Shown here: positions 22,889 to 58,861 of the stretch, piece after piece
Numbering within the stretch: the stretch's first letter is position 1
How the letters are laid out: each line of letters begins with the position of its first letter
Assembly: GCF_000002985.6 (NCBI RefSeq)
Contig: NC_003283.11
Span: forward strand, 4,278,001 to 4,342,000
Source: Caenorhabditis elegans
Taxonomy: Eukaryota > Nematoda > Chromadorea > Rhabditida > Rhabditidae
Direction: 5' to 3'
Length of the DNA: 64,000 nucleotides
Position numbers and translations under genes: made by a program
Notes under the pieces: generated by a model
What the model was told of the DNA's origin: nothing
Seen by the model: the letters and a program-made list of their open reading frames with translations, nothing else
Databases searched by the model: none

Positions 22889-22956
22889 AAGCTACAACAT
22901 GCATAATGTCCAACAGTTTGAGCAAGGCACTTCCCGCAATGTCGCTGTATACTGGG

Positions 22957-23281
22957 TAAACGGTGAGGGCAGTGGGTTTTAACAGCCTGACGGATATTGC
23001 TCGCCAGTTACTTTATTGAGTCTCAGAAATAGTAGACAACAGAAACAGTGGAAGAATATAAGAAACAGTGGAAAAGTATAATATAAGAAACGGATGGATT
23101 GAAAGTGTGTGTGTGTGGAGAGTTGGGGTTGACGATAACTGTGCCCGTCCTTGCGGACGGGCTTCTTTTATACCCCTGCCCCAGGGGGGCGGAGTTTGAG
23201 GGTGAGATTGTAAAGTGGCCGGGGGAGGAAGGAATGTGTGCAATATTATATTGGCGAAAAGGAGAAGGTACGTTGCGTACA
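22957..23281 (-). repeat. 3' LTR of the BEL/Pao element
   Basis: In element orientation the LTR starts TGTACGCAACG and ends CACCGTTTA. It contains a TATAAAA box (plus-strand TTTTATA near 23165), a GC-rich hairpin (CCCGTCC...GGACGGG) just downstream, and AATAAA near 23014. It is 325 bp, one base different from the 5' LTR. Confidence 0.92.
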
Positions 23282-23289
23282 CTCCCCGG
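23282..23289 (-). promoter_or_regulatory. Polypurine tract for plus-strand DNA priming
   Basis: In element orientation a short G-rich run, CCGGGGAG, directly abuts the TGTACG start of the 3' LTR, the position required for the PPT. It is short and interrupted by two C residues, so the exact primer is uncertain. Confidence 0.5.
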
Positions 23290-23292
23290 CAA

Positions 23293-24492
23293 TTAGTGGA
23301 CTCCTGAGATTGGAGCTTGAAGACACCAAGATGAGTGGTGATTTGTCCTGTGACAGTAGTGACATCTCTTCTTCTGGAACTCGTGGAGTTCTTCTTTCTT
23401 CTTGAGGCAGAGCAGACATCGATTGTTGTTCTCCAGGTGAGCTTTTCGGGCTTTCGGATCTTTGATGATCCCACATCTGTCAGACAGGTGTTTTCTGGTG
23501 CAATAAGCACATGATGGGCTTTTCGGTTCGTCTGCAACCGTAAAGCTTCTGTGGAACTTTGCTTTGAACAGCATTTTGTTCCCTTGTTTGGGAATCTTTG
23601 GAATCTGTTTTGACAGATTTTCTCCCTTGGCTTTGAGTGGTTGTGATCCACTTTTTTGAAGAGTTTCGGGCTCTTTGATCTTCGGAATTTTATAATTCCG
23701 AAGATTGAACTGACAGAGATCAGTTCTTGGAAGACGTTCTGATTCTTCGTGATTGATCACTTCCATGGAGATCGCTTCGTTCTGCTTTTGCGGATTGTGA
23801 AGGTCTCTTTTGGAGAGAGTTTCCAGGATAAGGCGAATTGAAGATCGCATCTCCTGTTGATCCTTTTGGAGAATTTGAATCTGGTGTTCCAATCGCAGAT
23901 TGGGCTCCGGGCTTTGTGTCATGTGAGCCTGGATTTGTGTCCATGCTTCTTTCATCTTATCTGAGATGAGTGACATTTTGGATGATGTCCCATCTTTATT
24001 GGCACTTAATGTGTTCAATGCTTGGTGGACATTGAATTGTCTCTCCTTTTGGAGCTTCTCGAGTCTGGAGCGAGCTCTTGGGTCTTTTTGTGCCCATTCA
24101 TTTAATTGATGATGATGGAATATCATCATATCGCTCGCTTCTGTGACAGCGAGCTTGTGCTGCATGACTTTTTCTTTCACTTGTTCTAGCAGCATGTATT
24201 GTTCGGGAATTTCCTTCGTTTCTTTTGGTGGGAACTTGTTGATTGTTTCCACCTGTTCCTCTAGAATATTTTTCATTCTGAGGATATGTTGCTTGGCGAT
24301 TCCATTGTGGAAAATTATCTTTTCCAACGTTCCTTTTATTTTGTCCTTGCTTCTGAAGATCTTTATGAGCTTGATCGCTCCGAGAATGATCTTTTTCTTG
24401 GAGATCTTGTTTGTCCCCTTCGTTTTGACGAGTTGGAGCTTGTTGTGGAAGTTCTTCAAGAATTTCGATGTCCATGGCATCATGTTGGTCAA
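23293..24492 (-). CDS. Extra retroelement ORF after env with CCHC zinc knuckles (nucleocapsid-like)
   Basis: A 399-codon frame between env and the 3' LTR. The N-terminal 230 residues are basic and helical with long coiled-coil-like stretches (for example MLLEQVKEKVMQHKLAV). The C-terminus has a cysteine/histidine array: CAYCTRKHLSDRC (C-x2-C-x3-H-x4-C), a linker containing CLLC, and CHYCHRTNHHSSWC, a canonical C-x2-C-x4-H-x4-C knuckle. That layout mirrors the nucleocapsid end of BEL Gag, including this element's own. The true start is unclear: an overlapping frame upstream (from about 24515, MNPAAQAVDQHDAMDIEI) looks coding and could be the original N-terminus before a frame break. I infer a second RNA-binding or Gag-like protein. 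Confidence 0.6.
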   Translation of the reverse strand: MTNMMPWTSKFLKNFHNKLQLVKTKGTNKISKKKIILGAIKLIKIFRSKDKIKGTLEKIIFHNGIAKQHILRMKNILEEQVETINKFPPKETKEIPEQYMLLEQVKEKVMQHKLAVTEASDMMIFHHHQLNEWAQKDPRARSRLEKLQKERQFNVHQALNTLSANKDGTSSKMSLISDKMKEAWTQIQAHMTQSPEPNLRLEHQIQILQKDQQEMRSSIRLILETLSKRDLHNPQKQNEAISMEVINHEESERLPRTDLCQFNLRNYKIPKIKEPETLQKSGSQPLKAKGENLSKQIPKIPKQGNKMLFKAKFHRSFTVADEPKSPSCAYCTRKHLSDRCGIIKDPKARKAHLENNNRCLLCLKKKEELHEFQKKRCHYCHRTNHHSSWCLQAPISGVH

Positions 24493-24615
24493 CTGCTTGA
24501 GCTGCTGGATTCATGTTGAGCTTGTTACGAGTTTCTGAAAACAATTGATGTTTATTTTTTGTTTTAATGCACATTTTGAATTTTTGTTTTTTGAATTTTG
24601 CCGATGTGGACCGTC

Positions 24616-26640
24616 TTAAGCGGTTTTTGTTTCGGATTTGTACCGATTTTTTCCACACCGGCTGATACAAAAAAAATAAATTTTGTACAAGCTTTTTATT
24701 GGTAGCCCTATTATGAAGACTGTCAATCTGACCGTTTTCCGGATCCCGAGTAGCATGAATGAAGCTACTATTGTTCCAGTTACTGCGAAAACGGCTAATG
24801 TAATGATTATCGTAATCATTAATGTTTTCATGAATGAAAGGTAGCTGGTCCACAAGTGTCCCTGATCTGGCCATGAGATTTCATTTGTTATGGTGGACTT
24901 TCCTTCGATAATTCTGTATATCGATGTCCATATGGATCCAGTAAATTTGAGAATGCCTGTTATCTCAAAGGTCTGGGTTTGTTTTCCACAGCTTATTTGG
25001 CGCAGTTTTCTGAACTGAGCCTTTTCTGTGAAGAAAGTGATGTTCTGTTTGTGACCTTCTGGTGTACAAGGTATAGAGAACATATCTTCTTCGCATACTA
25101 TGTTTCCGATCGTGTCGGTTTTTTGCGAAAAGCATTGTAGCGTTGCTGAGCTTCCAGTTGCACATTTGTAGCATCCTGAAGCATGACTAGCTTTCACGTA
25201 GCACTTTTCGTTGCTTATCCATGCGGACATTGTAACATTATCTTTTAATGTCATGGTAACTCCAGTGGTTACTTCATTAGCAATGGTTGCGGTAATTTTG
25301 TCATCGCTTAGCTGTAATTTCCAGTGGTTTTCCTGGATTGGGAGTCTTTTGTCTAAACTGTTCATATAGTTCTGAAGACTTTCTGTTTGGCACACACAGT
25401 TTATTCTATCTTCTGCGGGTGTGCATACACAGTTCTCTGTGAATGTGCAGTTATTTTGTTCGCTGTCTTTGGTTGAGCAGTTGAACATGGGGTGTTTATA
25501 CGGCTCCCATATTGCTGTATTGTTGGCTCTTTGTATGAACCAAGTCGCCAGGATTGGAGATTCTGGCTTGTTGATGGAGTTCACTGACATTGTGATGTCT
25601 TTGATTGTTGTCACGAAATTCAATGGAATTTTGATTTCTTGACTCTCCATTCTTGGATTTTTTCCGTCCCACTCCGTTATTGAAACTTTGAGGTGGACTT
25701 TTTCAATCCATTCGTTGCATTTCATGATCTCGAAGGAGTCATTGGTGGTGGGAACTGCGTATATGCGGTAAAAGAGGCACCCGCTGGACGGATAGAAACA
25801 TCCGCAGCCAGGCCCCCCGCAGCTCTCACTACACCTTGTTTTTTCCACGTAACCGTTTGTTGGTTCGAGTTCTGGTAGTAGTGATGATAACGAAATGTTG
25901 TTACATTTGTCTTCACCGCAAGAGCCCATGTGTGGGCATCGTTTGGAGCTCCAAACCTTGGTTTGGACGTCTTTTGTGAACGTCACCGTGGTTTTCATGC
26001 ATTCAAGTTGAACGGCCTTGAATTGAACTCTCACTTCTTTTGTCACTTTCCCACTTTTTGTGATCCTGATACAAGATTCTTTCCTGTATGGGTTAATGTT
26101 CATGAATTGTCTGGTCACAAGTTTGCAATAACTTGTTCCGTCATCCGTGGAACATATTTTCTGTGACTGTGTGAGAGAGTCAATTTCCTGACATCCTGAG
26201 CTGACTGTAACGATGATGCACAAAATTGGTATTATTGTTGACCAACTGTGTCTTCGTTGTGCTCGTCTTGTTCTTAGGCATGCTTTTCCCAAATTCCAAA
26301 TGGTGGAGATCGTTCTCTTTATCACGCTCCATGCCATTGATATTGGTGCTCCGATTGGCACTGGTACCCGGAATAGACAATGTATCATCATCATGATGAT
26401 GTACAAAAATATTCCTATTCCCAAGATGGCATAGTTGGGGTGACACTCTGGATTTGAGATATTGGACCAACATATGACACAATCGATTGTGTCACATGTG
26501 GACTGTGCTGGACAACTTGTCTCATGTATTGAGACTTTGTTGTCTTTCAGAATTTTTGTTGTGACTGTGTGGTCTACCGATTTGATAGCTGGCGGCAGCC
26601 AGATCTCGGTGTTGCCTGAGGACCAGTCTATTCATTTTCT
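24616..26640 (-). CDS. Retroelement envelope glycoprotein (phlebovirus Gn/Gc-like), main part
   Basis: Open frame of 602 codons from the first ATG at 26424, with same-frame coding-looking sequence extending back to about 26640. It has a hydrophobic segment near the start (IGIFLYIIMMM), a second one (WSTIIPILCIIVTVSSG) that could be an internal signal, and a large cysteine-rich ectodomain. That contains the SCGGPGCGC cluster resembling phlebovirus-type class II fusion proteins, and many N-x-S/T sites. A C-terminal membrane anchor (TIIITLAVFAVTGTIVASFML) and a basic tail follow. The signal-peptide part lies in another frame (26628-27629), separated by a break near 26635, so the full precursor cannot be made from one frame without frameshifting or splicing. 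Confidence 0.75.
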
Positions 26641-27785
26641 TTGAGTACAGTAATTTGCACTGCAAGTTTCAAAGGTATCGAATTTTTCGTTGATTCGAAT
26701 GCCAGTTGTGTACACTCTATTGGAGCTGTTGCCATCGAAGGACTTATCAACAATGCAAAAAGCGAGAGGAACAATAATTTTGGCATTGTTCTCCCAATAT
26801 CCCATGTTTGAGATCTTGAGACTGTTTGTGCCTGATTATTGTCATCATCTTTCTCCTCGTAGTTGATGGTTTTCTTCTTTCGAAGATTGTACCTTCTGTT
26901 CTGATTTGGCTGATCAATTTCAGTGTTGATCTCGCTTTGCCCATTTGCGACTACTTCTTGGATCTTTTCTGGAATATTTTCCATGTTATCCTCCATGACA
27001 TTTTCCGCGTCTTGAGCGTCTGTTTCATGTTGAATCTCTTCGATCTCTAATGGAGTAATCAAATTTATGGGTCTTCTGATTGTCCTCCCTGTTGCTGTTA
27101 ATAAATGGGCTTCTCTCAGAATTCCATCTGTGGACGGTTTTGTTTCCGTGATTTTTCCCATTTTCCAGTTGTTACGGGGAAGGTTTGGATCGCATATGAG
27201 TACGACCTGGCCAACAAACGGGGAATCGTTTATTTCACGCTTATTGTCCATTCTGAGTTTGTGTGTTTCTCTCAGTTCTGAAAGATAGGTTTTGTTCCAT
27301 ATCTTCCAGATATCTTCAATGATTGCCACTGAGGATTGAAGAGCTTCTATGGTCTCTTGTTTTGTGAGATTTATCTCCTCTGGTGGGATGTATTCATCCA
27401 TCATGTCTTTTGTGACCTGAAGAGGGATTGTCATTCTCATTTCTGGATTTATGAAATCTTTCGGGCAAATTGTTGTTCCTGCACCTTCTGTGACGTATGT
27501 GAGAGGTCTGGAATTTATTATTCCTGAGACTTCTTTCATTACCGTTTCGAGGTCGTCGAGTGTGAGAATGTTTTTGCCGATTGACTTATATATCGCTTGT
27601 TTTATGGATCGCATCATTCTCTCATACATGCCTCCTTGCCAAGGAGCGTACGGAGTGATGAAACTCCATTCAATGGATGTATTTCCAAGATATTCTAGAA
27701 TATCTTTGTCAAGAGCATTTTCTTTGGAAGCCCTTGCTGATACTTCGTTGAGGATTTGTTGTCCCAGAATTGAGGAGCGTTATCA
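26628..27785 (-). CDS. Integrase C-terminus in frame with the env signal peptide
   Basis: The longest ATG-initiated frame is 27629-26628, but in-frame coding sequence runs back to about 27785, where it leaves the main pol frame. It carries the rest of the integrase core (WSFITPYAPWQGGMYERMM, with the presumed catalytic Glu) and a C-terminal DNA-binding-like region (VGQVVLICDPNLPRNNWKMG). A basic tail follows, and then, without a stop, a typical secretory signal peptide starting MPKLLFLSLFALL. It ends at TAG after ...LKENE. Pol and the env leader therefore share a frame. Env is presumably made from a spliced or internally initiated message using the ATG of that leader. Confidence 0.75.
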
Positions 27786-30697
27786 CTGACAATTCTGTCG
27801 GGAATTCCTCTTTCAGATACGAATCTTCGGATTGCATTGATGAATGCTTTTGTTGAGCATTGTTGGACTAACTCTATGTGAGTTAGTCTCGTGGTAGCGC
27901 ATGATAATACGCATCCCCAACATGATTCTGTGGAACCATCTTCTTTCCTGAATGTCATTGGACCGAAGTAATCCAGCCCTGTGTTTTCGAAGGGTCTGGA
28001 CCGACGTACACGGAATGACGGCATGTCTGCCATGTTTGGATATTTCATTGGCGCTCGGTTGTATCTTTGACATTTGACGCACTTTCCAATGATTTTCTTC
28101 ACCTGCCGTCTTAGACAAGGTATCCATGCCTTCTCTCTTGTAGCTTCCATGGTTTGTTGTTCATTGGTATGATACTTTCCATGTGCTTCCCAGATGAGAA
28201 GTTTTGCCAATTGGCTTTGTGGCATGATAAAGACCGGTTGACTGATGTCAATATCTGGTGACATATGAAAGAGTCTTCCTTTACAGCGAGCTAGACCTTC
28301 CACCAGTTGGATATTGAGTTTGCTCCATTTTCGCAAATCTTTGCTTTCGAGATTTGCTTGGTGTTCACGGATTAACCGTTTTTCGTCCCATTGGTGTTCG
28401 GCTGCTGTAATGGGAGGATTTCCTGTGGCTGCTACTGTCAGCTCTGGAATTGCTTTTTCCATTTTTTGTTGTCTCGGTCTTGGTAGCTTTGTGGCCATCT
28501 TTTTTATGGCTCGGAAAGCATATGCTGCTACTCTTCTCATCTTTGGAAGAGAGTTTGTTCGATTAATGTCGAACACTGCTTCGAATTTTTCTGATTCGAT
28601 TGCTTTGCAAATGTTGATGTTTGCCATTTCTGCTTCTGTTCTGTTTATTTTGAACATTTTTTGTCGTGTTTCCCAAGTTGAGGAATCACTCTTTGCATAC
28701 TCTGGTCCTTTCCACCATATGCTGTTTTGGAAGTCTTCTTTTGGAAGCCCTCTTGTGCGTAGATCGGCTGGGTTTTCAAGAGTGTTGACATATCCGAAGA
28801 ACACTTGTACTCCTTTTTGGAGCATTGTCTCATTGGTTTTGCGGATTGATTCAATCCTGTTTTTTATCAGTATGCCAACTTCTTTTTTCCCTGGCTCTGA
28901 CCTGAGCCATGCTAAGGTAATCTCACTGTCAGAAAAGAGGATGACCTTTGTGACTTTGATGTCTCCATCTTGGAGAGCGGTCAGTGTTGAAAGAGCTCTG
29001 TCAGTGGCTACTTTGAGTGCTTGGACTTCCAGTTTTGGAATGGTCCATTTTTCTTTCAAAGACTTGACATTTGACTTTCCAAACAAGAGGTTTACACCAT
29101 ACTTGTTTTTTACATAGATACAAGCTGCAATTGCTTCCTGACTGGCGTCTGCGAATGCTATGATTTCATTCTCGCCAGATTTATCTATGATGTGACGGTT
29201 GAAATCTTTTGAGAATCCTCGGATATTATCCGTGATGGATTTGTACTCTTTTTCGTGCTTCTCTTTTAGCGGTGTGTCCCATCCATACTTCTCCTCTTCG
29301 ATCCAAAGTTTTCTTTGGAATAATTTAAGTGGAAGAAGCAGCGGGACTAGGAGACCCATCGGGTCATATATTGACGCGATTGCACTAGATACTGTTCTTC
29401 TAGAATTTTCGAGTATGTCAATATCAGTAGTTGACGAAGTTATTTGATCTGTCTTGGTTGACCATTTTACCCCCAGGACTTTAACTTCGCTTTCTGACGT
29501 TTTGTCACACTCATCTAGTAGGTCAGTGAATGACTGATCATTACTCTGAAATTCTCTAATATTCATGGAGAGTCCATTGAATACTGTCTTTACTTTGTTG
29601 TAAAGTTTGAACATTGCTTCAGAGTCATCATCTGTTGCGATAATCAAATTATCCACATAAAGATTTCTTGCTATCGTGTTTGCCAGCTTCTTATCTTCCA
29701 TTCTGTCCAAATGAAAAAGAATGGTCGCTCCCAAGAGAAATGGACTAACGTTGAGTCCAAAGAGTACTCTTGTAAATCTTAATACTCTTAAGTTTTCTCT
29801 TGTTGGTGGCAGGTCAGGGTTTTTTACCCATAGGACTCTTGTCACGTCTCTGTCGCTCTCGTTCAGATGGACCTGGAGAAAAGCTTTCTCTACATCGGCC
29901 AAGAGAACCGTTTTGCCTGATCTGAATCTGGTGTCCACACTATCAGGCAGTATTGTAGGGCCTTGATAGATGGCGTCGTTTAGTGACGGCTCGTTTTTGA
30001 AATGTGCCGAGCCGTCGATAACTACGCGACATTTGGTCGTAGTCTTTTGCGGTGTCAGTACGGGAGAATGTGGATTATAATGAATCCTCATCCCTTCTGT
30101 ATCTTTGGATACATCTACTTCTTCCAAGATGTTTTTCGAGATTTGATCTTCGAATACATCGTTCACAAGTTTTTTGACTTGTGGGTTTGCTTTGAGACCG
30201 CTTTGTAGTCTTTTCTTCGCAATGGCGAAGTTTGATGGAAGTTTATCAATGACTTCCTCCTTGAAAGGCAATCGTACGTGGTAGCCGTTTTCTCTTTTCT
30301 CAATCGTATTATTGAAAAACTGAGTTGTTTTCTTTTCCATCTCCAGTTTTTCATCTACGACTGCTCCTGTATACTCGTTAGGAGCGTGCATTATCGTTTC
30401 CTGTTGCTGAAGGAACTCGATGTCGTCGTTTTGCACTTTCACGACTGTGTTCATGACTGAGATGGTTGAATCCATCTCCAATGGTTTGGACCATTTTGTG
30501 TTTTTCCCCATTGTTGTGTAACCAAACACAGTTTTGATCAATAGAATTCCGGATGGTAACTGTATGAAGTCACCTCTCCATATTTCCGCAATGTGATCGC
30601 AACCGATAATGATGTCTGGTTCAACTCTGGTTTCAAAACATTCTTGATTGATTTTCAGTTGCTTTGTCAAAGCGAACTTCAAATCTTCATTTGTCAT
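27695..30697 (-). CDS. Pol: reverse transcriptase, RNase H, integrase (N-terminal part)
   Basis: A 1000-codon frame. In order: A17-type protease tail (IIGCDHIAEIWRGDFIQLP), RT (VLLADVEKAFLQVHL, LRFTRVLFGLNVSPFLLGA, active-site box NLYVDNLIIATDD), an RNase H-like region (IIAFADASQEAIAACIYV), the integrase HHCC zinc finger (HGKYHTNEQQ ... CVKCQRY) and the core up to SDNAPQFW. The RT box reads YVDN where YVDD is the generic form. The frame ends early: after SDNAPQF it shifts relative to the rest of integrase at about 27785 and stops at 27695. It lies in frame with the protease ORF upstream but is separated from it by a TAA at 30709-30707. Confidence 0.85.
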   Translation of the reverse strand: MTNEDLKFALTKQLKINQECFETRVEPDIIIGCDHIAEIWRGDFIQLPSGILLIKTVFGYTTMGKNTKWSKPLEMDSTISVMNTVVKVQNDDIEFLQQQETIMHAPNEYTGAVVDEKLEMEKKTTQFFNNTIEKRENGYHVRLPFKEEVIDKLPSNFAIAKKRLQSGLKANPQVKKLVNDVFEDQISKNILEEVDVSKDTEGMRIHYNPHSPVLTPQKTTTKCRVVIDGSAHFKNEPSLNDAIYQGPTILPDSVDTRFRSGKTVLLADVEKAFLQVHLNESDRDVTRVLWVKNPDLPPTRENLRVLRFTRVLFGLNVSPFLLGATILFHLDRMEDKKLANTIARNLYVDNLIIATDDDSEAMFKLYNKVKTVFNGLSMNIREFQSNDQSFTDLLDECDKTSESEVKVLGVKWSTKTDQITSSTTDIDILENSRRTVSSAIASIYDPMGLLVPLLLPLKLFQRKLWIEEEKYGWDTPLKEKHEKEYKSITDNIRGFSKDFNRHIIDKSGENEIIAFADASQEAIAACIYVKNKYGVNLLFGKSNVKSLKEKWTIPKLEVQALKVATDRALSTLTALQDGDIKVTKVILFSDSEITLAWLRSEPGKKEVGILIKNRIESIRKTNETMLQKGVQVFFGYVNTLENPADLRTRGLPKEDFQNSIWWKGPEYAKSDSSTWETRQKMFKINRTEAEMANINICKAIESEKFEAVFDINRTNSLPKMRRVAAYAFRAIKKMATKLPRPRQQKMEKAIPELTVAATGNPPITAAEHQWDEKRLIREHQANLESKDLRKWSKLNIQLVEGLARCKGRLFHMSPDIDISQPVFIMPQSQLAKLLIWEAHGKYHTNEQQTMEATREKAWIPCLRRQVKKIIGKCVKCQRYNRAPMKYPNMADMPSFRVRRSRPFENTGLDYFGPMTFRKEDGSTESCWGCVLSCATTRLTHIELVQQCSTKAFINAIRRFVSERGIPDRIVSDNAPQFWDNKSSTKYQQGLPKKMLLTKIF

Positions 30698-30706
30698 TTG
30701 AGCTTT

Positions 30707-31432
30707 TTAGATTTTCCCTGTGAGATACTCTGAATGTAGAACTATCATGCTGATTTTTTGTCCATCAGTTTCAAGTTCAATTTTTGATCTTTCAAAGATT
30801 TTCTCTGGTTGAGCTTTTCCACTTCCGAATGTCTGAAGACGGAGTGTTTTTTCATCAACTTTTGGTAGCTTCCAATCTTTTGCAATGTTTGCCTTTATAT
30901 ATGATTGGTCAGCCCCTGTATCTAACATGATTGTTAGATCGGTCCAGTCCCTTTTTTCAGGGTTGAACGCTCTTGCTGAGATGGTTGGCAGACTTATGAC
31001 TTCTTGGTCATTTGATACCTTTTCTGTTTCGTATCTGTCTGGTGTCACCTCGCCAGCTGGTGACCTTGTGCACGCAACGTTCTGTTGCCCTCTTGTCGGC
31101 GTTCCTTTTGGCTTTTCCGACTTTGCTGAGTCAGTAGTCTTTGTCTTGACTTCTTTCTCTTTCTCTCCTCTATCTCTTTTGTTGCAGATAGAAAAGTGAT
31201 GCTTGCCTCCTTCACAGCTTGCACAATGTTTACGAGTGCTTTTACACTCGCCTACAGTATGACCTTTGCTGAGGCAGTTTAAACAACGATTATCTTTAAT
31301 CAATGTTTGATGTAACAAATTTGTCACACTTGTGGAGAGCATGTTTTGTTGACTTACAGTAAAGACACTGACGGTCAAACGTTTTTGCAGATTTGTCTTT
31401 CGACTTTGCTGCTGGATTTGGTTGCGACTCAT
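30707..31432 (-). CDS. Nucleocapsid second knuckles and aspartic protease segment
   Basis: A 241-codon frame whose recognisable part starts near 31315. It holds CLNCLSKGHTVGEC (canonical CCHC knuckle), CASCEGGKHHFSIC, then the aspartic protease with the LDTGADQSYI active-site motif. It overlaps the gag frame by about 137 bp in the next register. The recognisable protein leaves the gag frame just after the gag knuckle CLYCKSTKHALHKC, so a frame change near 31310 is needed. It ends at TAA 30709-30707, after which the same frame stays open into RT. The upstream part of this frame (31432-31320) is probably not translated. Confidence 0.75.
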   Translation of the reverse strand: MSRNQIQQQSRKTNLQKRLTVSVFTVSQQNMLSTSVTNLLHQTLIKDNRCLNCLSKGHTVGECKSTRKHCASCEGGKHHFSICNKRDRGEKEKEVKTKTTDSAKSEKPKGTPTRGQQNVACTRSPAGEVTPDRYETEKVSNDQEVISLPTISARAFNPEKRDWTDLTIMLDTGADQSYIKANIAKDWKLPKVDEKTLRLQTFGSGKAQPEKIFERSKIELETDGQKISMIVLHSEYLTGKI

Positions 31433-32387
31433 TTTGGGACGTCTTCATGAGACTTTGCAGGTCCTCTTCGATCGTCAGGATTTTTTCAATGTCCTTGATT
31501 AGACGATCTGTGGTCCATGTTCCCTGGTCTTTGAGTTTTTGTTCGTAGACTTTTCTTCTGATCTTCTCTGAGAACTTCTTCAATAGAAGATCTTTGAAAA
31601 TTCTGTCTTCGAGATGTTCGCCTAACTGGCGTAACTGATCAATTATGATGACCAAGTTTTCGTATAGCTCTTTTTGAGCTTGAATCGAATCATTTTTCGA
31701 TTTTTCCTTCAGCAGCTTTTCATTCAAGCTATTGATGGTGCTTTCTGAGTTGGTGTACTTGTTTTTAAGTGCCTCAACTGCTTTGGCGTAGTTCTCAGAT
31801 GTGATCTGATACTTGGTTGCCAAGGTTTTGGGTTCACCTTCAAGAGCTCCCAGTAATCTGATAAATTTCACCATGTCTGGCATGTCCGTTTTGTGGACTA
31901 GCTCTTCAAAGAGAACCCAGAAGTTTTGAAACTCCCAACTTTCACCTTTGAACTTTGGGATTTTTATGTCCGGTAGTGACCCTGAATTGTATGTGACAAT
32001 TGGGATTTGAACCGGTTGGTCTGTTGTTCGTGTCATTGTGACTGAACTCTGTTGCTGAGCCCGTTTGAGGGTCGCATGTAGGACATCTCTGATGTCTTGT
32101 GCTGCGACAATTATCTCAACAATTTCATCAATTTTCTCGGTACACTTTTGTGTTTCCGTAACATAATTGTCTAGCAGATCTGCTGCTTCTGTGAGAGCTT
32201 CCATGGCTCTCTCTGTGGTAGCCACTTTGCTTTCAACTTGATCAATTCCCTCTATGATTTCGCCTAACTGGTCTTTGGTCAATTGTGCCCCGGCAAGATC
32301 CTTGGTCTTGCCGGCCCAATAGGCTTTTACTGTCATGAGGGCATTGACTGCTTTTGTGGTTGTAGCTAGCTTATATTGGAGACTCAT
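31296..32387 (-). CDS. Gag polyprotein (matrix/capsid region, first zinc knuckle)
   Basis: A 363-codon frame starting at the first ATG after the PBS and a 141-bp leader. It forms the structural core of the virus-like particle. The first 120 residues are alpha-helical (KAVNALMTVKAYWAGKTKDL). Residues about 140-310 match the BEL/Pao capsid pattern: LPDIKIPKFKGESWEFQNFW, then LLGALEGEP and LLKKFSEKIRRKVYE. The frame ends shortly after the CCHC knuckle CLYCKSTKHALHKC at TAA 31296. The remaining nucleocapsid knuckles are in the +1 register downstream. Whether the change is programmed or a mutation cannot be told from one copy. Confidence 0.82.
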   Translation of the reverse strand: MSLQYKLATTTKAVNALMTVKAYWAGKTKDLAGAQLTKDQLGEIIEGIDQVESKVATTERAMEALTEAADLLDNYVTETQKCTEKIDEIVEIIVAAQDIRDVLHATLKRAQQQSSVTMTRTTDQPVQIPIVTYNSGSLPDIKIPKFKGESWEFQNFWVLFEELVHKTDMPDMVKFIRLLGALEGEPKTLATKYQITSENYAKAVEALKNKYTNSESTINSLNEKLLKEKSKNDSIQAQKELYENLVIIIDQLRQLGEHLEDRIFKDLLLKKFSEKIRRKVYEQKLKDQGTWTTDRLIKDIEKILTIEEDLQSLMKTSQNESQPNPAAKSKDKSAKTFDRQCLYCKSTKHALHKCDKFVTSNID

Positions 32388-32528
32388 GGTTCTCTTGTTT
32401 TGAAATTTTTGAAGTTTCTTTTTTGGAAACTTTTGACTTTTGGAAGAAAAATTTCAAATGAACTTACTTACTTGCTCGCCTTTTTTTTCTTTTTTGATTT
32501 GCCGCGCGGTTGTTGTTTTAGTCGTTTA

Positions 32529-32540
32529 GTCGATGCACCA
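32529..32540 (-). promoter_or_regulatory. Primer-binding site complementary to tRNA-Gly
   Basis: In plus orientation GTCGATGCACCA equals the last 12 nt of the tRNA-Gly copy at 32610-32683 including CCA. In element orientation it follows the LTR end directly, as expected for minus-strand priming. Complementarity stops at 32528 (A against G). The match includes the T (in GTCG) that makes a G:U pair in the tRNA acceptor stem. Confidence 0.9.
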
Positions 32541-32610
32541 TAAACGGTGAGGGCAGTGGGTTTTAACAGCCTGACGGATATTGCTCGCCAGTTACTTTAT
32601 TGAGTCTCAG
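32541..32610 (-). repeat. Extra 70-bp copy of the LTR terminal segment (R/U5)
   Basis: Identical to 32684-32753, the last 70 bp of the 5' LTR in element orientation, including AATAAA. It lies between the PBS and the 5' end of the tRNA copy. Its boundary with the tRNA shares one G. It is not present at the 3' LTR. This second LTR end is the one that actually abuts the PBS. Confidence 0.92.
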
Positions 32611-32683
32611 CATCGGTGGTTCAGTGGTAGAATGCTCGCCTGCCACGCGTGCGGCCCGGGTTCGATTCCCGGTCGATGCACCA
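32610..32683 (+). tRNA. tRNA-Gly (GCC) copy with encoded CCA, captured in the retroelement
   Basis: 71-nt cloverleaf body plus CCA. Acceptor GCATCGG pairs with TCGATGC (one G:U), D-arm GTTC...GAAT, anticodon loop CTGCCAC (GCC), T-arm CCGGGTTCGATTCCCGG perfect. The anticodon stem has one T:T mismatch (32650 is T where a pairing base is expected). Internal A and B boxes (TGGTTCAGTGG, GGTTCGATTCC) are intact, so Pol III transcription is possible. Both ends are the mature tRNA ends and CCA is present. Eukaryotic tRNA genes do not encode CCA, so I interpret it as a cDNA of the primer tRNA rather than an ordinary gene. Confidence 0.85.
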
Positions 32684-33008
32684 TAAACGGTGAGGGCAGT
32701 GGGTTTTAACAGCCTGACGGATATTGCTCGCCAGTTACTTTATTGAGTCTCAGAAATAGTAGACAACAGAAACAGTGGAAGAATATAAGAAACAGTGGAA
32801 AAGTATAATATAAGAAACGGATGGATTGAAAGTGTGTGTGTGTGGAGAGTTGGGGTTGACGATAACTGTGCCCGTCCTTGCGGACGGGCTTCTTTTATAC
32901 CCCTGCCCCAGGGGGGCGGAGTTTGAGGGTGAGATTGTAAAGTGGCCGGGGGAGGAAGGAATGTGTGCAATATTATATTGGCAAAAAGGAGAAGGTACGT
33001 TGCGTACA
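32684..33008 (-). repeat. 5' LTR of the BEL/Pao element
   Basis: 325 bp, one base different from the 3' LTR. The TATAAAA (plus-strand TTTTATA near 32893), the GC-rich hairpin and the AATAAA (near 32741) are the same as in the 3' copy. It drives transcription leftward through the element. It is bordered on the right by the CTGGG target duplication and on the left by the tRNA copy instead of directly by the PBS. Confidence 0.92.
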
Positions 33009-33485
33009 CTGGGCGTAAGTTTTTAAGAAGTAGCAGACGACATATGGCGGTTTCAGACTTGGGAAACGGAAAACAGGAAACTGTCGGTTGCTGTTCACAT
33101 TTTGGAAAAAGCCGAAAATTAATAAACAAAAATGTGACTGAAAATTTTGGAAAAACTGAAAATATTAAAATATTTTGGACTAAATGTATTTATGTATTTA
33201 TGTAAATGTATTTAGATTGAATCCAACTGACGATACTCAACATTTTTTCACCACGGATCAAGTTCTGATCTACCGCCAAGAGCATCTTGAAAAAATTATC
33301 GGTTTCCTCATTGTTTGAAAAATTGGGAAATTGAAAAAACTAGATTTTATCAAGATAAAAATTAAAAAAAGCGATATTTTTGCCCTTGTCCACGAGTCAA
33401 TTTTTCCGATATGCAAAACTTTGTCAGATTTTATAAAATTTCCTGAAACTGAAACTAACTTTTAGTAAACGGCTGCACTGAAATA

Positions 33486-33992: not shown

Positions 33993-36900
33993 TTATACGG
34001 TTACAACGACATTAGAATGGTTGGAGGAAGACAAATTGGCAATTTGGTTTTGAGATACTTCCACCGGGCTCATTCTTGAAAGTTTTCTCAGCAGATCTTG
34101 TGCGTATTCCCGGTATGGTGCATGAAGTGCAATAAGTGCTATTGTCGATACACTACCATGACAGGAAAATATTGCCAGAGTTGCATTATTCAATCCTTGA
34201 TTGTAATAGTTAATCAAATATGCGAAACCAATATAAATCAATGTAAAAATGAAACAAATCATTGGAATTGACACTTGAATGAGTAGAGTAATAATAAACT
34301 TTTTCTGAAGTTCAAACGTTTTTGGAGACATTTTATGCTCTTTCATTTGCTTGACGATGTTGAAAATAAGGTATCCCACAAATATAAAAGATTCAATCAA
34401 AACTAGAAATATATAAACAACTGAGATAGTAGCATGATAAGTAAGACTTTCACTCAACACCAAAATTGGAGCTTCATAAATATAACTGGGAAGACATGGA
34501 AGTTTCTGGAAAGTTAACAGTTCATAGTATCCGCCAAAGGTATCAGGTTGTCCCATAAGTTTTTGTACTTTTTTTCAAATATTTTTCCAAAACTTCTAGA
34601 AAGTTTTAAAATTTTTTCATCGTAGGTCGTGTCAAGGTCGGGTCGTCCCCTTTCAGAAAAGATTCATTTCATCCATTTCTACTTTGCCACGATGACAATC
34701 ATCAAACTTGAACGTCAAGACGTTAGGTTGCTTCTTCTTTATGAATTTCGTCTTGGTCATTCAGCAATGGAAGCAAAACGAAACATATGCGGTGCGATGG
34801 GTGAGGGAGCACTCTCTTATAATACAGCAAAGAGTTGGTTTCAAAAGTTCAAGAACGGCGACTTCAGTCTCGAAGAAATAGAACGTTCTGGGCGACCGGT
34901 AGAGTTAAATGAAGAAGACCTAGTGAAGCTGGTGGAGGAAGAGCCTCGTCTTAGTCTTCGTGAAATGGAAGAGAAGCTTGAGTGTTGTCATAGCACAATT
35001 GCACGTCACTTGGGTCGCCTTGGTTTTACTTCAAAACTTGGAACTTGGGTGCCTCATGAACTTTCGGCATCACAGAAGCTCACTCGGGTCAACGTTTGTA
35101 CTCAACTTCTAACTTTTCGTCGAAAGTTCGATTGGCTGAACAATCTGGTTACTGGAGATGAGAAGTGGGTGCTCTATGTTAACAATTCCAGAAAACGTCA
35201 ATGGCTTCCGATCGGTGAGAAAGGAATACCGACGCCAAAGCATGATCTTCACCCAAAAAAGATTATGATCTGTGTCTGGTGGGGTGTTCAAGGACCCGTG
35301 CACTGGGAATTGTTGCCAACTAATAAAACTATCACTGCTGATTACTATTGTGCCCAATTGGACCGAGTTGCAGAAAAGACGAACGGAAAATATGAAAAAC
35401 TATATTTTCTTCACGATAATGCTAGGCCTCATGTCGCCAAGAAGACTTTCCAAAAGCTGCAAGATCTTGGTTGGACTGTTTTACCGCATCCACCATATTC
35501 TCCAGATCTTGCACCAACCGACTACCATTTGTTCTTGTCTCTCAGTGACTACATGCGCGACAAGCAATTCGACGACGAAGAGCATCTCAAAACTGAACTC
35601 TCCACTTTCTTCTCATCGCGTTCGCCGGATTTCTTCTCCCGTGGCATCATGATGTTACCTAGTAAATGGCAACAAGTGGTGGACACTAATGGTGAATACT
35701 TGTGTGAATAGTACTACTTGTCGCTTGAGAGAAATAAATTTTTTTCAAAAAAAAAATAGTACAAAAACTTATGGGACAACCTGATAGATAAGTTTTTTTT
35801 TAAATTTTTGGTGAGAAGTTTTCTATTGAATTGTAATTTCCAAGCCTCATCAGAAACTACTGTAGTTATCAAAAAAATTAAATATTTATAAACTAGGGAC
35901 TAAACTAGGGAATATTTATAAACTAGGGAAAATAAAATAAAACCTGGAACATGAGGGGTACTGCAATTTTCTGATCGGGAGTTAGAAAAACAATTGGAGT
36001 CAGGAAAGTTGGAACAATGACGTAATGAGTGGCTAACCAGATACGCCTCAAAACGACCCAATGATTTTTGAACGCAAAATCGCACACAATATAAAATCGA
36101 TTCTCAAAAATTGACACTATTGAAATTCCCATATCTGAAATGTTATTTTAAGTCTATGAAACAATTCAGATCACACAGGGACCAACATTTTCTGTGTGAC
36201 TTTAAAGGTGGATAACCGACATCTCTGAAAGTTTTTTTTTAAGACTTCAAATATGCCTTTAATTCCAAATACCTATGCAAAAAAAAAGTGGATAAAAAAC
36301 AGTGAAAACTGTTAAATCTGGAGGAAATTAGGTATGTAATGACATTGAAAATTTGCAACCTGTAAATCTACGCACCTGTTTAGCAAATAGAAAAAGCGGA
36401 GTGTCGTTGCGCGCGAGTCTTTGGGGTTTGAAAAAGCAAATGCCATTTCAAGCTCAAATATAAAATCAGAAAAAAAAATTGTCGATAGGTAAACAAAAAT
36501 CATCAAAAATGGTTACCTATCGGCTTTTAATGTACTTTAATGGACGAAATTATGTGAGATAAACTATCAAAATATGCAATAAAGGATGATAATTACAAAA
36601 AAGTCAACTTTGGACAGATGCGACACGAAAAAAGGGGCAAAATTTGCTATTTTACCTAAAATCAGTGTATGTAATTTTTCAAAACTTAAGACGGCATAAA
36701 AAATTTTTGAACATTTTTTTGAGCAGTTTCGTTACAAAATTCTTTCATTTGAGAACATTTTAAGTCCATACGCTCATAATCGTCCGAACCGGTAGTCCCC
36801 CTTTAAACAAATATTTTTTCAGAACTTACAGGCACCAATACCCATAACTATACTTGTTAGATAGTCCAGAGGCATACTGGTGTATTTTAAAATACCAAGA

Positions 36901-54896: not shown

Positions 54897-55242
54897 TTTT
54901 GCATTTTTTTTAGAAACCCACGAGACGTAGGTTGCTTAAAAAATGCTTAAATTCTTGTCAGTATTTAGAAAATACTCAATGCGGGAAAATCTGAAAAATT
55001 GTACATATGAACCTTTCAAATTTGTGAGAACGCTCTTATAAATCCCCACAATCAGATTTCAATTCGATTTTTTGAAAAAGTATCAAGACATCCGCTTTCT
55101 TTGGATACATTTTGGAAGATCGGGGTCCCGATAAGTTTTAATTTTGAAAAAATGGCTGGACCGAGATATGGATCTCACGTTTATGATGTTCAGTTTTCTA
55201 GCGGGTTGCTTGTGACGTCACGTCTCTTTGCTCCCGACAGAT

Positions 55243-55254
55243 GGGGGGGGGGGG
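55243..55254 (+). other. Twelve-base G tract
   Basis: An uninterrupted run of 12 G residues immediately beside the minisatellite start. Such tracts can form G-quadruplexes and are replication-fragile in C. elegans lacking the dog-1/FANCJ helicase. Confidence 0.85.
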
Positions 55255-55260
55255 TATACG

Positions 55261-58200
55261 GTGAAGCCAGAGAGTAAAATATTCTGTGAAGCCAGAGAGT
55301 AAAATATTCTGTGAAGCCAGAGAGTAAAATATTCTGTGAAGCCAGAGAGTAAAATATTCTGTGAAGCCAGAGAATAAAATATATGGTGAAGCCAAAGAGT
55401 AAAATATTCTGTGAAGCCAGAGAGTAAAATATTCTGTGAAGCCAGAGAGTAAAATATTCTGTGAAGCCAGAGAGTAAAATATACGGTGAAGCCAGAGAGT
55501 AAAATATATGGTGAAGCCAAAGAGTAAAATATTCTGTGAAGCCAGAGAGTAAAATATATGGTGAAGCCAGAGAGTAAAATATTCTGTGAAGCCAAAGAGT
55601 AAAATATTCTGTGAAGCCAGAGAGTAAAATATACGGTGAAGCCAGAGAGTAAAATATTCTGTGAAGCCAGAGAGTAAAATATTCTGTGAAGCCAGAGAGT
55701 AAAATATCCTGTGAAGCCAGAGAGTAAAATATTCTGTGAAGCCAGAGAATAAAATATATGGTGAAGCCAAAGAGTAAAATATTCTGTGAAGCCAGAGAGT
55801 AAAATATACGGTGAAGCCAGAGAGTAAAATATTCTGTGAAGCCAGAGAGTAAAATATTCTGTGAAGCCAGAGAGTAAAATATTCTGTGAAGCCAGAGAGT
55901 AAAATATTCTGTGAAGCCAGAGAGTAAAATATACGGTGAAGCCAGAGAGTAAAATATTCTGTGAAGCCAGAGAGTAAAATATTCTGTGAAGCCAGAGAGT
56001 AAAATATACGGTGAAGCCAGAGAGTAAAATATTCTGTGAAGCCAGAGAGTAAAATATTCTGTGAAGCCAGAGAGTAAAATATTCTGTGAAGCCAGAGAGT
56101 AAAATATACGGTGAAGCCAGAGAGTAAAATATTCTGTGAAGCCAGAGAGTAAAATATTCTGTGAAGCCAGAGAGTAAAATATACGGTGAAGCCAGAGAGT
56201 AAAATATTCTGTGAAGCCAGAGAGTAAAATATACGGTGAAGCCAGAGAGTAAAATATTCTGTGAAGCCAAAGAGTAAAATATTCTGTGAAGCCAGAGAGT
56301 AAAATATACGGTGAAGCCAGAGAGTAAAATATTCTGTGAAGCCAGAGAGTAAAATATTCTGTGAAGCCAGAGAGTAAAATATTCTGTGAAGCCAGAGAGT
56401 AAAATATATGGTGAAGCCAAAGAGTAAAATATTCTGTGAAGCCAGAGAGTAAAATATACGGTGAAGCCAGAGAGTAAAATATTCTGTGAAGCCAGAGAGT
56501 AAAATATTCTGTGAAGCCAGAGAGTAAAATATACGGTGAAGCCAGAGAGTAAAATATATGGTGAAGCCAAAGAGTAAAATATTCTGTGAAGCCAGAGAGT
56601 AAAATATATGGTGAAGCCAGAGAGTAAAATATTCTGTGAAGCCAAAGAGTAAAATATTCTGTGAAGCCAGAGAGTAAAATATATGGTGAAGCCAGAGAAT
56701 AAAATATATGGTGAAGCCAAAGAGTAAAATATTCTGTGAAGCCAGAGAGTAAAATATTCTGTGAAGCCAGAGAGTAAAATATTCTGTGAAGCCAGAGAGT
56801 AAAATATTCTGTGAAGCCAGAGAGTAAAATATTCTGTGAAGCCAGAGAGTAAAATATACGGTGAAGCCAGAGAGTAAAATATTCTGTGAAGCCAGAGAGT
56901 AAAATATTCTGTGAAGCCAGAGAGTAAAATATACGGTGAAGCCAGAGAGTAAAATATTCTGTGAAGCCAGAGAGTAAAATATTCTGTGAAGCCAGAGAGT
57001 AAAATATTCTGTGAAGCCAGAGAGTAAAATATACGGTGAAGCCAGAGAGTAAAATATTCTGTGAAGCCAGAGAGTAAAATATTCTGTGAAGCCAGAGAGT
57101 AAAATATTCTGTGAAGCCAGAGAGTAAAATATTCTGTGAAGCCAGAGAGTAAAATATTCTGTGAAGCCAGAGAGTAAAATATACGGTGAAGCCAGAGAGT
57201 AAAATATTCTGTGAAGCCAGAGAGTAAAATATTCTGTGAAGCCAAAGAGTAAAATATTCTGTGAAGCCAGAGAGTAAAATATATGGTGAAGCCAGAGAAT
57301 AAAATATATGGTGAAGCCAAAGAGTAAAATATTCTGTGAAGCCAGAGAGTAAAATATTCTGTGAAGCCAGAGAGTAAAATATACGGTGAAGCCAGAGAGT
57401 AAAATATTCTGTGAAGCCAGAGAGTAAAATATTCTGTGAAGCCAGAGAGTAAAATATTCTGTGAAGCCAGAGAGTAAAATATACGGTGAAGCCAGAGAGT
57501 AAAATATTCTGTGAAGCCAGAGAGTAAAATATTCTGTGAAGCCAGAGAGTAAAATATTCTGTGAAGCCAGAGAGTAAAATATACGGTGAAGCCAGAGAGT
57601 AAAATATTCTGTGAAGCCAGAGAGTAAAATATTCTGTGAAGCCAGAGAGTAAAATATACGGTGAAGCCAGAGAGTAAAATATATGGTGAAGCCAAAGAGT
57701 AAAATATTCTGTGAAGCCAGAGAGTAAAATATACGGTGAAGCCAGAGAGTAAAATATTCTGTGAAGCCAGAGAGTAAAATATTCTGTGAAGCCAGAGAGT
57801 AAAATATTCTGTGAAGCCAGAGAGTAAAATATTCTGTGAAGCCAGAGAGTAAAATATTCTGTGAAGCCAGAGAGTAAAATATTCTGTGAAGCCAGAGAAT
57901 AAAATATATGGTGAAGCCAAAGAGTAAAATATTCTGTGAAGCCAGAGAGTAAAATATATGGTGAAGCCAGAGAGTAAAATATTCTGTGAAGCCAAAGAGT
58001 AAAATATTCTGTGAAGCCTGAGAGTAAAATATATGGTGAAGCCAGAGAATAAAATATATGGTGAAGCCAAAGAGTAAAATATTCTGTGAAGCCAGAGAGT
58101 AAAATATACGGTGAAGCCAGAGAGTAAAATATTCTGTGAAGCCAGAGAGTAAAATATTCTGTGAAGCCAGAGAGTAAAATATACGGTGAAGCCAGAGAGT

Positions 58201-58660
58201 AAAATATTCTGTGAAGCCAAAGAGTAAAATATTCTGTGAAGCCAGAGAGTAAAATATACGGTGAAGCCAGAGAGTAAAATATTCTGTGAAGCCAGAGAGT
58301 AAAATATTCTGTGAAGCCAGAGAATAAAATATATGGTGAAGCCAAAGAGTAAAATATTCTGTGAAGCCAGAGAGTAAAATATTCTGTGAAGCCAGAGAGT
58401 AAAATATTCTGTGAAGCCAGAGAGTAAAATATTCTGTGAAGCCAGAGAGTAAAATATTCTGTGAAGCCAGAGAGTAAAATATTCTGTGAAGCCAGAGAGT
58501 AAAATATACGGTGAAGCCAGAGAGTAAAATATTCTGTGAAGCCAGAGAGTAAAATATACGGTGAAGCCAGAGAGTAAAATATTCTGTGAAGCCAGAGAGT
58601 AAAATATTCTGTGAAGCCAGAGAGTAAAATATATGGTGAAGCCAGAGAGTAAAATATTCT
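55261..58660. repeat. 25-bp minisatellite, 136 tandem units
   Basis: Unit GTGAAGCCAGAGAGTAAAAT plus ATTCT. The array is exactly 3,400 bp, equal to 136 units, and every unit start stays on the 25-bp register: no insertion or deletion in the whole array. Variation is confined to a few positions. The last three bases are TCT, ACG or ATG (one CCT), and there are occasional CCAAAG and AGAATA variants. Certain variant orders recur, for example ATATG, then ATTCT, then CCAAAG near 55559, 56609 and 57960. The minus strand contains no stop in any frame, producing frames of over 1,000 codons that are artefacts of the repeat. Confidence 0.97.
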
Positions 58661-58861
58661 TTTTTACAATATTATACTCCAACAAAAAATGAGCCATGGT
58701 TTTTTACGTGAATTTCCAATTTCTAAAAGTTATATTTCATGTGGCACCACGTTTCATATGCTCTTATCACATTTCAAATTTAATTTCTCCCATTTCCCGG
58801 ATTGTTTTCGATAAATTATCGTGTTTCTCGAATTTTCGCAATCCCTTCAACCAAATTTTCA

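Follow-up and report, generated by a model that had tools for sequence, protein, structure and literature searches.

Reverse-transcribed tRNA between LTR ends has been known since 1986. A circular MMLV DNA with tRNA-Gly between its LTRs was cloned by Colicelli and Goff (1986, as described in PMC12220202), who invoked a primer that was left attached, copied and kept at circularisation. That circle was unintegrated, stemmed from a laboratory mutant, carried a spurious primer and lacked 4 bases at the tRNA 5′ end (PMC12220202). An HIV-1 provirus with 67 nt of tRNA-Gly plus CCA beside its 3′ LTR is likewise a mature-tRNA cDNA fused to an LTR end. In that case the tRNA is external to the provirus, is without its first five bases and is non-cognate, and the authors propose self-priming (PMC12220202).

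Copying of a whole tRNA primer has also been described. In retroviruses, plus-strand copying normally stops before m1A58, and on tRNA that lacks modification it proceeds as far as the 5′ end (review, PMC13191261). With HIV-1, read-through of unmodified tRNA to the 5′ end is found in vitro, and when the A58 methylase is lost plus-strand products run on beyond A58. The corresponding strong-stop product, P1, in which the whole tRNA primer is copied, appears in vitro or upon loss of A58 methylation and is reported to be unable to serve strand transfer (PMC13191261). In yeast Ty1 and Ty3, a change in the primer tRNA is not passed to the primer binding site (PBS) (PMC5371799). A different association of tRNA and LTR is represented by Helenus and TRIMp3, LTR retrotransposons that contain a Pol III promoter resembling a tRNA; both LTRs carry the tRNA-like sequence, which is not complementary to the PBS and is ascribed to a SINE insertion (PMC10886601).

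The locus described here lies in a 64-kb stretch of Caenorhabditis elegans DNA (C5:4278001-4342000), termed the window. As in the circle of Colicelli and Goff, the U5 end of an LTR is joined to a tRNA cDNA that includes CCA. The circle's complete second LTR has no counterpart here: the element is integrated DNA in which the tRNA is followed by just 70 bp of LTR. The window element thus differs from the MMLV circle in being an integrated germline copy that holds the cognate primer with a complete 5′ end and retains the PBS. In comparison with HIV-1 P1, a product of that kind is found here in an integrated element. Unlike Helenus and TRIMp3, there is a single tRNA copy; it is antisense, matches the PBS as the cognate primer and is located outside the LTR. 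With respect to the available accounts of these systems, what is new is the natural integration, the nucleotide-complete copy and the cognate primer. The literature searched, most subscription papers being outside it, yielded no account of an integrated LTR element that contains its complete cognate primer tRNA.

On the reading preferred below, the locus would be a natural integrated record of a reverse-transcription failure that is otherwise seen in laboratory retroviral DNA. Two questions become directly testable: how strong a plus-strand stop m1A58 of tRNA-Gly(GCC) is in a BEL element with a 12-nt PBS, and whether joining end to end can substitute for plus-strand transfer by way of the PBS. 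It carries a warning as well: what scores highly as a tRNA gene in a model genome can turn out to be retrotransposon debris.

Identity and boundaries of the element

The element is ∼10 kb in length and is on the minus strand (22957-33008). Its two LTRs, the 3′ LTR at 22957-23281 and the complete 5′ LTR at 32684-33008, are 325 bp each with boundaries set by inspection, and they are identical at 324/325 positions. The sole mismatch is a G at 23256 and an A at 32983. A 5 bp target duplication, CTGGG, is present at both flanks (22952-22956 on the left and 33009-33013 on the right, also by inspection), a sign of normal integration, which bears out an earlier proposal, made from the letters of the window and termed here the sequence-only reading, that the product had integrated.

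The open reading frames are all on the minus strand. The gag frame (31296-32387) has a DUF1759 match. The pol frame (27695-30697) displays the reverse transcriptase motif YVDN, a Pao-type peptidase A17 (PF05380, E 3.7e-36) and an integrase zinc domain; an RVT_1 match in the frames of the element scores below its cut-off. A frame with DUF5641 (26628-27629) follows, which we take to be the C-terminal side of the integrase, and then an env-like frame with a Phlebovirus_G2 domain (24616-26424, E 8e-92). With peptidase A17, YVDN, LTRs, a PBS and a short target duplication all present, the element belongs to BEL/Pao (Tas/Cer group).

The element is probably Cer7, by fit to published values rather than by accession or coordinates. 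Cer7 is described as having one intact copy with 99.7% LTR identity and one solo LTR (PMC1858694); it has an env gene, and the YVDN motif is given for Cer7-Cer12 (PMC554778). The window element is likewise one intact copy, with LTRs identical at 324/325 positions, one full solo LTR match, env (Phlebovirus_G2) and YVDN. The accessible portions of the two Cer7 descriptions hold no mention of a tRNA insert (PMC1858694, PMC554778). In whole-assembly searches, which spanned 7 contigs and 100,286,401 bases, the family consists of one such element, one solo LTR that is ∼77% identical, and fragments.

The captured tRNA and the duplicated LTR end

Read in element orientation, the 5′ end opens with a full LTR (33008-32684). 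The complement of tRNA-Gly(GCC), CCA included, comes next (32683-32610), and after it the terminal 70 bp of the LTR appear a second time (32610-32541), ahead of the PBS (32540-32529), the leader and gag. The order from LTR to PBS had been put forward in the sequence-only reading, and it is borne out by ARAGORN and by repeat and sequence comparison. The tRNA complement that follows the 5′ LTR opens with TGGTGCATCGACC.

ARAGORN calls one tRNA in the 64-kb window, a tRNA-Gly(GCC) at 32610-32683 on the plus strand. Rfam (tRNA score, 62 bits) and a pattern search also detect it. It represents a complete mature tRNA including CCA, antisense to the element. The exact mature 5′ end and the CCA had both been claimed beforehand and are found as claimed; the CCA is at 32681-32683 and directly adjoins the LTR end TAAACGG (32684). 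The tRNA copy lies outside the 5′ LTR and is absent at the 3′ LTR. Its minimum-free-energy fold is not a cloverleaf and has a z-score of only -1.3; the nuclear gene tested does not give a cloverleaf either.

The PBS (32529-32540, minus strand) is complementary over 12 nt to the tRNA-Gly 3′ end with CCA, and base 32528 is mismatched. This agrees with the previous assignment of the PBS to the last 12 nt of the same tRNA. The 70 bp copy (32541-32610, minus strand) is 100% identical to 32684-32753. Together, the 12 bp PBS and the 70 bp LTR end form an exact direct repeat of 82 bp, at 32529-32610 and 32672-32753. A third match to this repeat, at the other LTR (22945-23026), is only 90% identical because the PBS part is missing there. 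The tRNA 5′ end and the 70 bp copy overlap at G32610. This constitutes one base of microhomology, which is compatible with chance.

The CCA and the exact 5′ end support the derivation of the copy from a mature tRNA. The 12-nt PBS match supports the captured tRNA being the element's own primer.

Nuclear tRNA-Gly genes and other tRNA-like sequences

A pattern for the tRNA-Gly 3′ half, allowing ≤3 mismatches, was found at 18 places in the whole assembly (control, 0). The nuclear tRNA-Gly-GCC gene set accounts for 14 of the 18 (13 full-length, 1 partial). CCA is present in 0/14, in keeping with the earlier statement that nuclear genes do not encode it. Three other places have a CCA context, namely the window locus, C1:11158676 and C3:938241, and the remaining one, C1:12383472, is a decayed variant. 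Alignment to the genomic tRNA-Gly genes, which had been suggested as a check in the sequence-only reading, reveals a single difference between the captured copy and the nuclear genes: a T for a G at the 41st base (standard position 42 by hand count). The G is found in every gene row (L004-L016), where L008/L015 and L009/L010 overlap and each pair is one gene shown twice.

A second whole tRNA-Gly copy with CCA is found at C1:11158627-11158701 (L017:1501-1574), and it has 65/71 bases as in the captured copy. This copy is joined to a dispersed ACATGG... motif on the complement. An LTR was not recognised in the 3,075-base L017 locus, and comparison with Cer7 matched the tRNA part only. The place at C1:12383472 (L098/L099) displays a decayed tRNA-Gly complement, with no LTR recognised there. 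A pattern combining the B box with CCA was found at 16 places in the whole assembly versus 6 in the control; it misses L017, whose B box has changed. Among the 15 places besides the window locus, ARAGORN calls one (L095, tRNA-Val-like) and Rfam is borderline for two (L095, L096).

Shorter sequences of related type are dispersed. The 13-mer TGGTGCATCGACC, the complement of the tRNA-Gly 3′ end plus CCA, occurs 144 times in the whole assembly (G000; control, 0), and ACATGGTGCATCGACC has 95 exact occurrences and 462 with ≤1 mismatch (control, 0). At the 20 loci examined (L022-L041) the motif is in mostly unrelated flanks, often with several per 3 kb, and it resembles an LTR end plus PBS.

The LTR promoter and the predicted RNA start

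The LTR displays a conserved core promoter (32867-32899, minus strand). It consists of TATAAAA at 32899-32893 and a perfect 8 bp GC-rich hairpin at 32889-32870, located between the TATA box and a predicted RNA start near 32867, and then ACAGTTATCGTC. The hairpin is identical in the solo LTR, L003, and is kept in L019, a decayed relative. The block comprising the TATA box, the hairpin and GGGCACAGTTATCGTC is conserved in L003 and largely kept in L019 and L021; over LTR positions 121-150 the window element and L003 are 30/30 identical. Inspection also shows TTCTG at both flanks of the solo LTR.

An RNA start near 32867 would be 114 nt upstream of the 70 bp junction (equivalent position 32753). 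The junction would therefore be 114 nt inside R, and the second LTR-end copy, with U5 and part of R, probably represents R-U5 in truncated form. A 70 bp copy that begins at the RNA 5′ end was considered and rejected, as the conserved promoter block points to the predicted start near 32867. Conservation in L003 is high around the junction too (29/30 and 30/30 in overlapping comparison windows), which leaves room for an RNA start at the junction.

Related elements

An ordinary arrangement is displayed on C1 by the BEL element L048, which is decayed and has a gag match interrupted by two stop codons. Here AATAAAGTAACT...TTTA is directly followed by TGGTGCATCGACTAAAC and then by the leader, i.e. 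the usual U5-PBS-leader order. The 12-nt PBS and the TAAAC of L048 are identical to those of the window element. Its LTR is recognised by similarity only, and a second LTR was not found in a repeat search of L081:8000-9901 and L082. The comparison with other copies that had been advised earlier has thus provided a relative with the ordinary order, but no sister copy in the assembly. ARAGORN, applied to 30 gag-type loci of the assembly whose 1.5-kb flanks may miss some 5′ LTRs, found a tRNA in 1/30, which is the window's own.

L019 (C3:938241-938427) is a decayed relative of the LTR family. It retains the promoter block and the R region, U5 is missing, and an A run and a PBS-like stretch for tRNA-Gly are present. 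A PBS-type match of 18 nt ends at A58. The PBS-like stretch of L019 matches 18 nt with two changes and may thus fit an A58 stop, although the reading is ambiguous. The sequence after this stretch scores 24 versus the tRNA complement (4/1000 shuffles as good), 20 versus the Cer7 leader (68/1000) and 27 versus the L048 leader (4/1000 as good). In view of these scores, L019 as a second read-through event was rejected, and the stretch may represent an 18-nt PBS followed by a leader.

Proposed origin of the arrangement

It is proposed, with a probability of about 0.7, that the locus is an integrated retrotransposon whose DNA precursor was mis-assembled during reverse transcription, by read-through of the whole tRNA and joining to an over-extended minus strand. 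Synthesis of plus-strand strong-stop DNA (U3-R-U5) would have continued along the entire tRNA primer as far as the tRNA 5′ end, with no stop inside. The plus strand holds the tRNA complement to base 1, and therefore the whole tRNA must have been copied; a direct fusion of CCA with the first base of U5 is the outcome expected when a tRNA primer is extended at the PBS. Separately, minus-strand synthesis would have overrun the PBS and reached through U5 some way into R, as the partial R-U5-PBS-gag downstream implies. One example of a route for this overrun would be transfer to a second, unconsumed genomic RNA. A join of the two 3′ ends, made over a single base that is C on the element strand, would then have taken the place of PBS-mediated plus-strand transfer. 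A jump of reverse transcriptase between template ends is favoured for the join, and cellular end joining is a possible means. The completed DNA would then have been integrated by integrase with normal outer ends. LTR identity at 324/325 positions and CTGGG on both sides indicate that the chimera formed before integration.

The sequence-only reading had envisaged a switch, over one base of microhomology, to a cDNA carrying R-U5-PBS. An acceptor with full R-U5 does not agree with the predicted start, and a template switch is indistinguishable from end joining. Several points weigh against the mis-assembly proposed here. The minus-strand end at the junction would not be a natural RNA end if the start is as predicted, and no second clear case was found in an LTR element among the 30 gag loci with their 1.5-kb flanks. 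The LTR of the comparison element L048 is recognised by similarity only, and a single shared base could be fortuitous.

The role of A58 calls for caution. The PBS match is only 12 nt in the window element and in L048, which is shorter than 18 nt. Given the 12-nt PBS, the m1A58 rule being retroviral, and primer changes in Ty1 and Ty3 not being passed to the PBS, A58 as the working stop in this lineage is a presumption.

Cellular DNA end joining offers a variant that retains the same read-through but is clearly less probable. A linear cDNA that kept its copied tRNA at one end would have been ligated to another cDNA whose 5′ LTR had been resected; if the first cDNA was full length, LTR-LTR recombination would have removed the extra body. 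The truncated second LTR end fits resection, and the retained and copied primer invoked for the MMLV circle (as described in PMC12220202) provides a precedent. If the predicted RNA start holds, the minus-strand end at the junction does not correspond to a natural RNA end, and resection with end joining gains weight. However, two cDNAs are required, plus an extra recombination for the full-length form, and the tRNA is complete to base 1 and thus untrimmed on that side.

Unlikely to a similar degree is that a parent element was mis-assembled and that the locus is a descendant after one or more further rounds, not the original event. A leader insert located between the LTR and gag would be replicated along with the rest of the genome, and the one-base difference from the tRNA genes could stem from later rounds. 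Yet the 70 bp copy is still identical to both LTRs, and the assembly, with its one element, one solo LTR of ∼77% identity and fragments, holds no sister copy.

Insertion or capture of a true nuclear tRNA gene, or of a tRNA retrocopy, after integration of the element is highly improbable. The A and B boxes are intact and tRNA retrocopies with CCA do exist (C1:11158627), but the CCA meets the LTR terminus exactly, the cognate PBS is downstream, the LTR end is duplicated and none of the 14 gene matches carries CCA. An assembly or cloning artefact is scarcely credible, for although the arrangement is seen in one assembly and a junction scan of viral_contigs, a set not expected to be informative, gave 0 matches, an artefact would not yield CCA, an exact primer-extension junction and one-base microhomology.

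A possible Pol III unit

The presence of Pol III A and B boxes inside an LTR element, as stated in the sequence-only reading, is confirmed at the level of sequence. Intact consensus matches are at 32617-32627 (A box) and 32659-32669 (B box), both on the plus strand. A TTTT downstream of the tRNA copy (32704-32707, plus strand) might act as a Pol III terminator. The predicted Pol III transcript would be tRNA-Gly with CCA plus ∼24 nt antisense to U5. It is very doubtful that the captured tRNA represents an intact Pol III unit, such that a primer-like RNA capable of pairing with the PBS and U5 of the element's genomic RNA would be encoded by the locus itself, and the leader would carry a 74-nt antisense target for tRNA-Gly fragments.

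Neighbouring features

Other open reading frames of the window also have matches. A frame of 360 amino acids at 34629-35711 on the plus strand, 1.6 kb from the element, matches the Mos1/mariner transposase (Transposase_1, HTH_48). On the minus strand, a frame of 187 amino acids (33993-34556) matches the C-terminal half of the Srh chemoreceptor family, and one of 1159 amino acids (55218-58697) displays an H-type lectin match.
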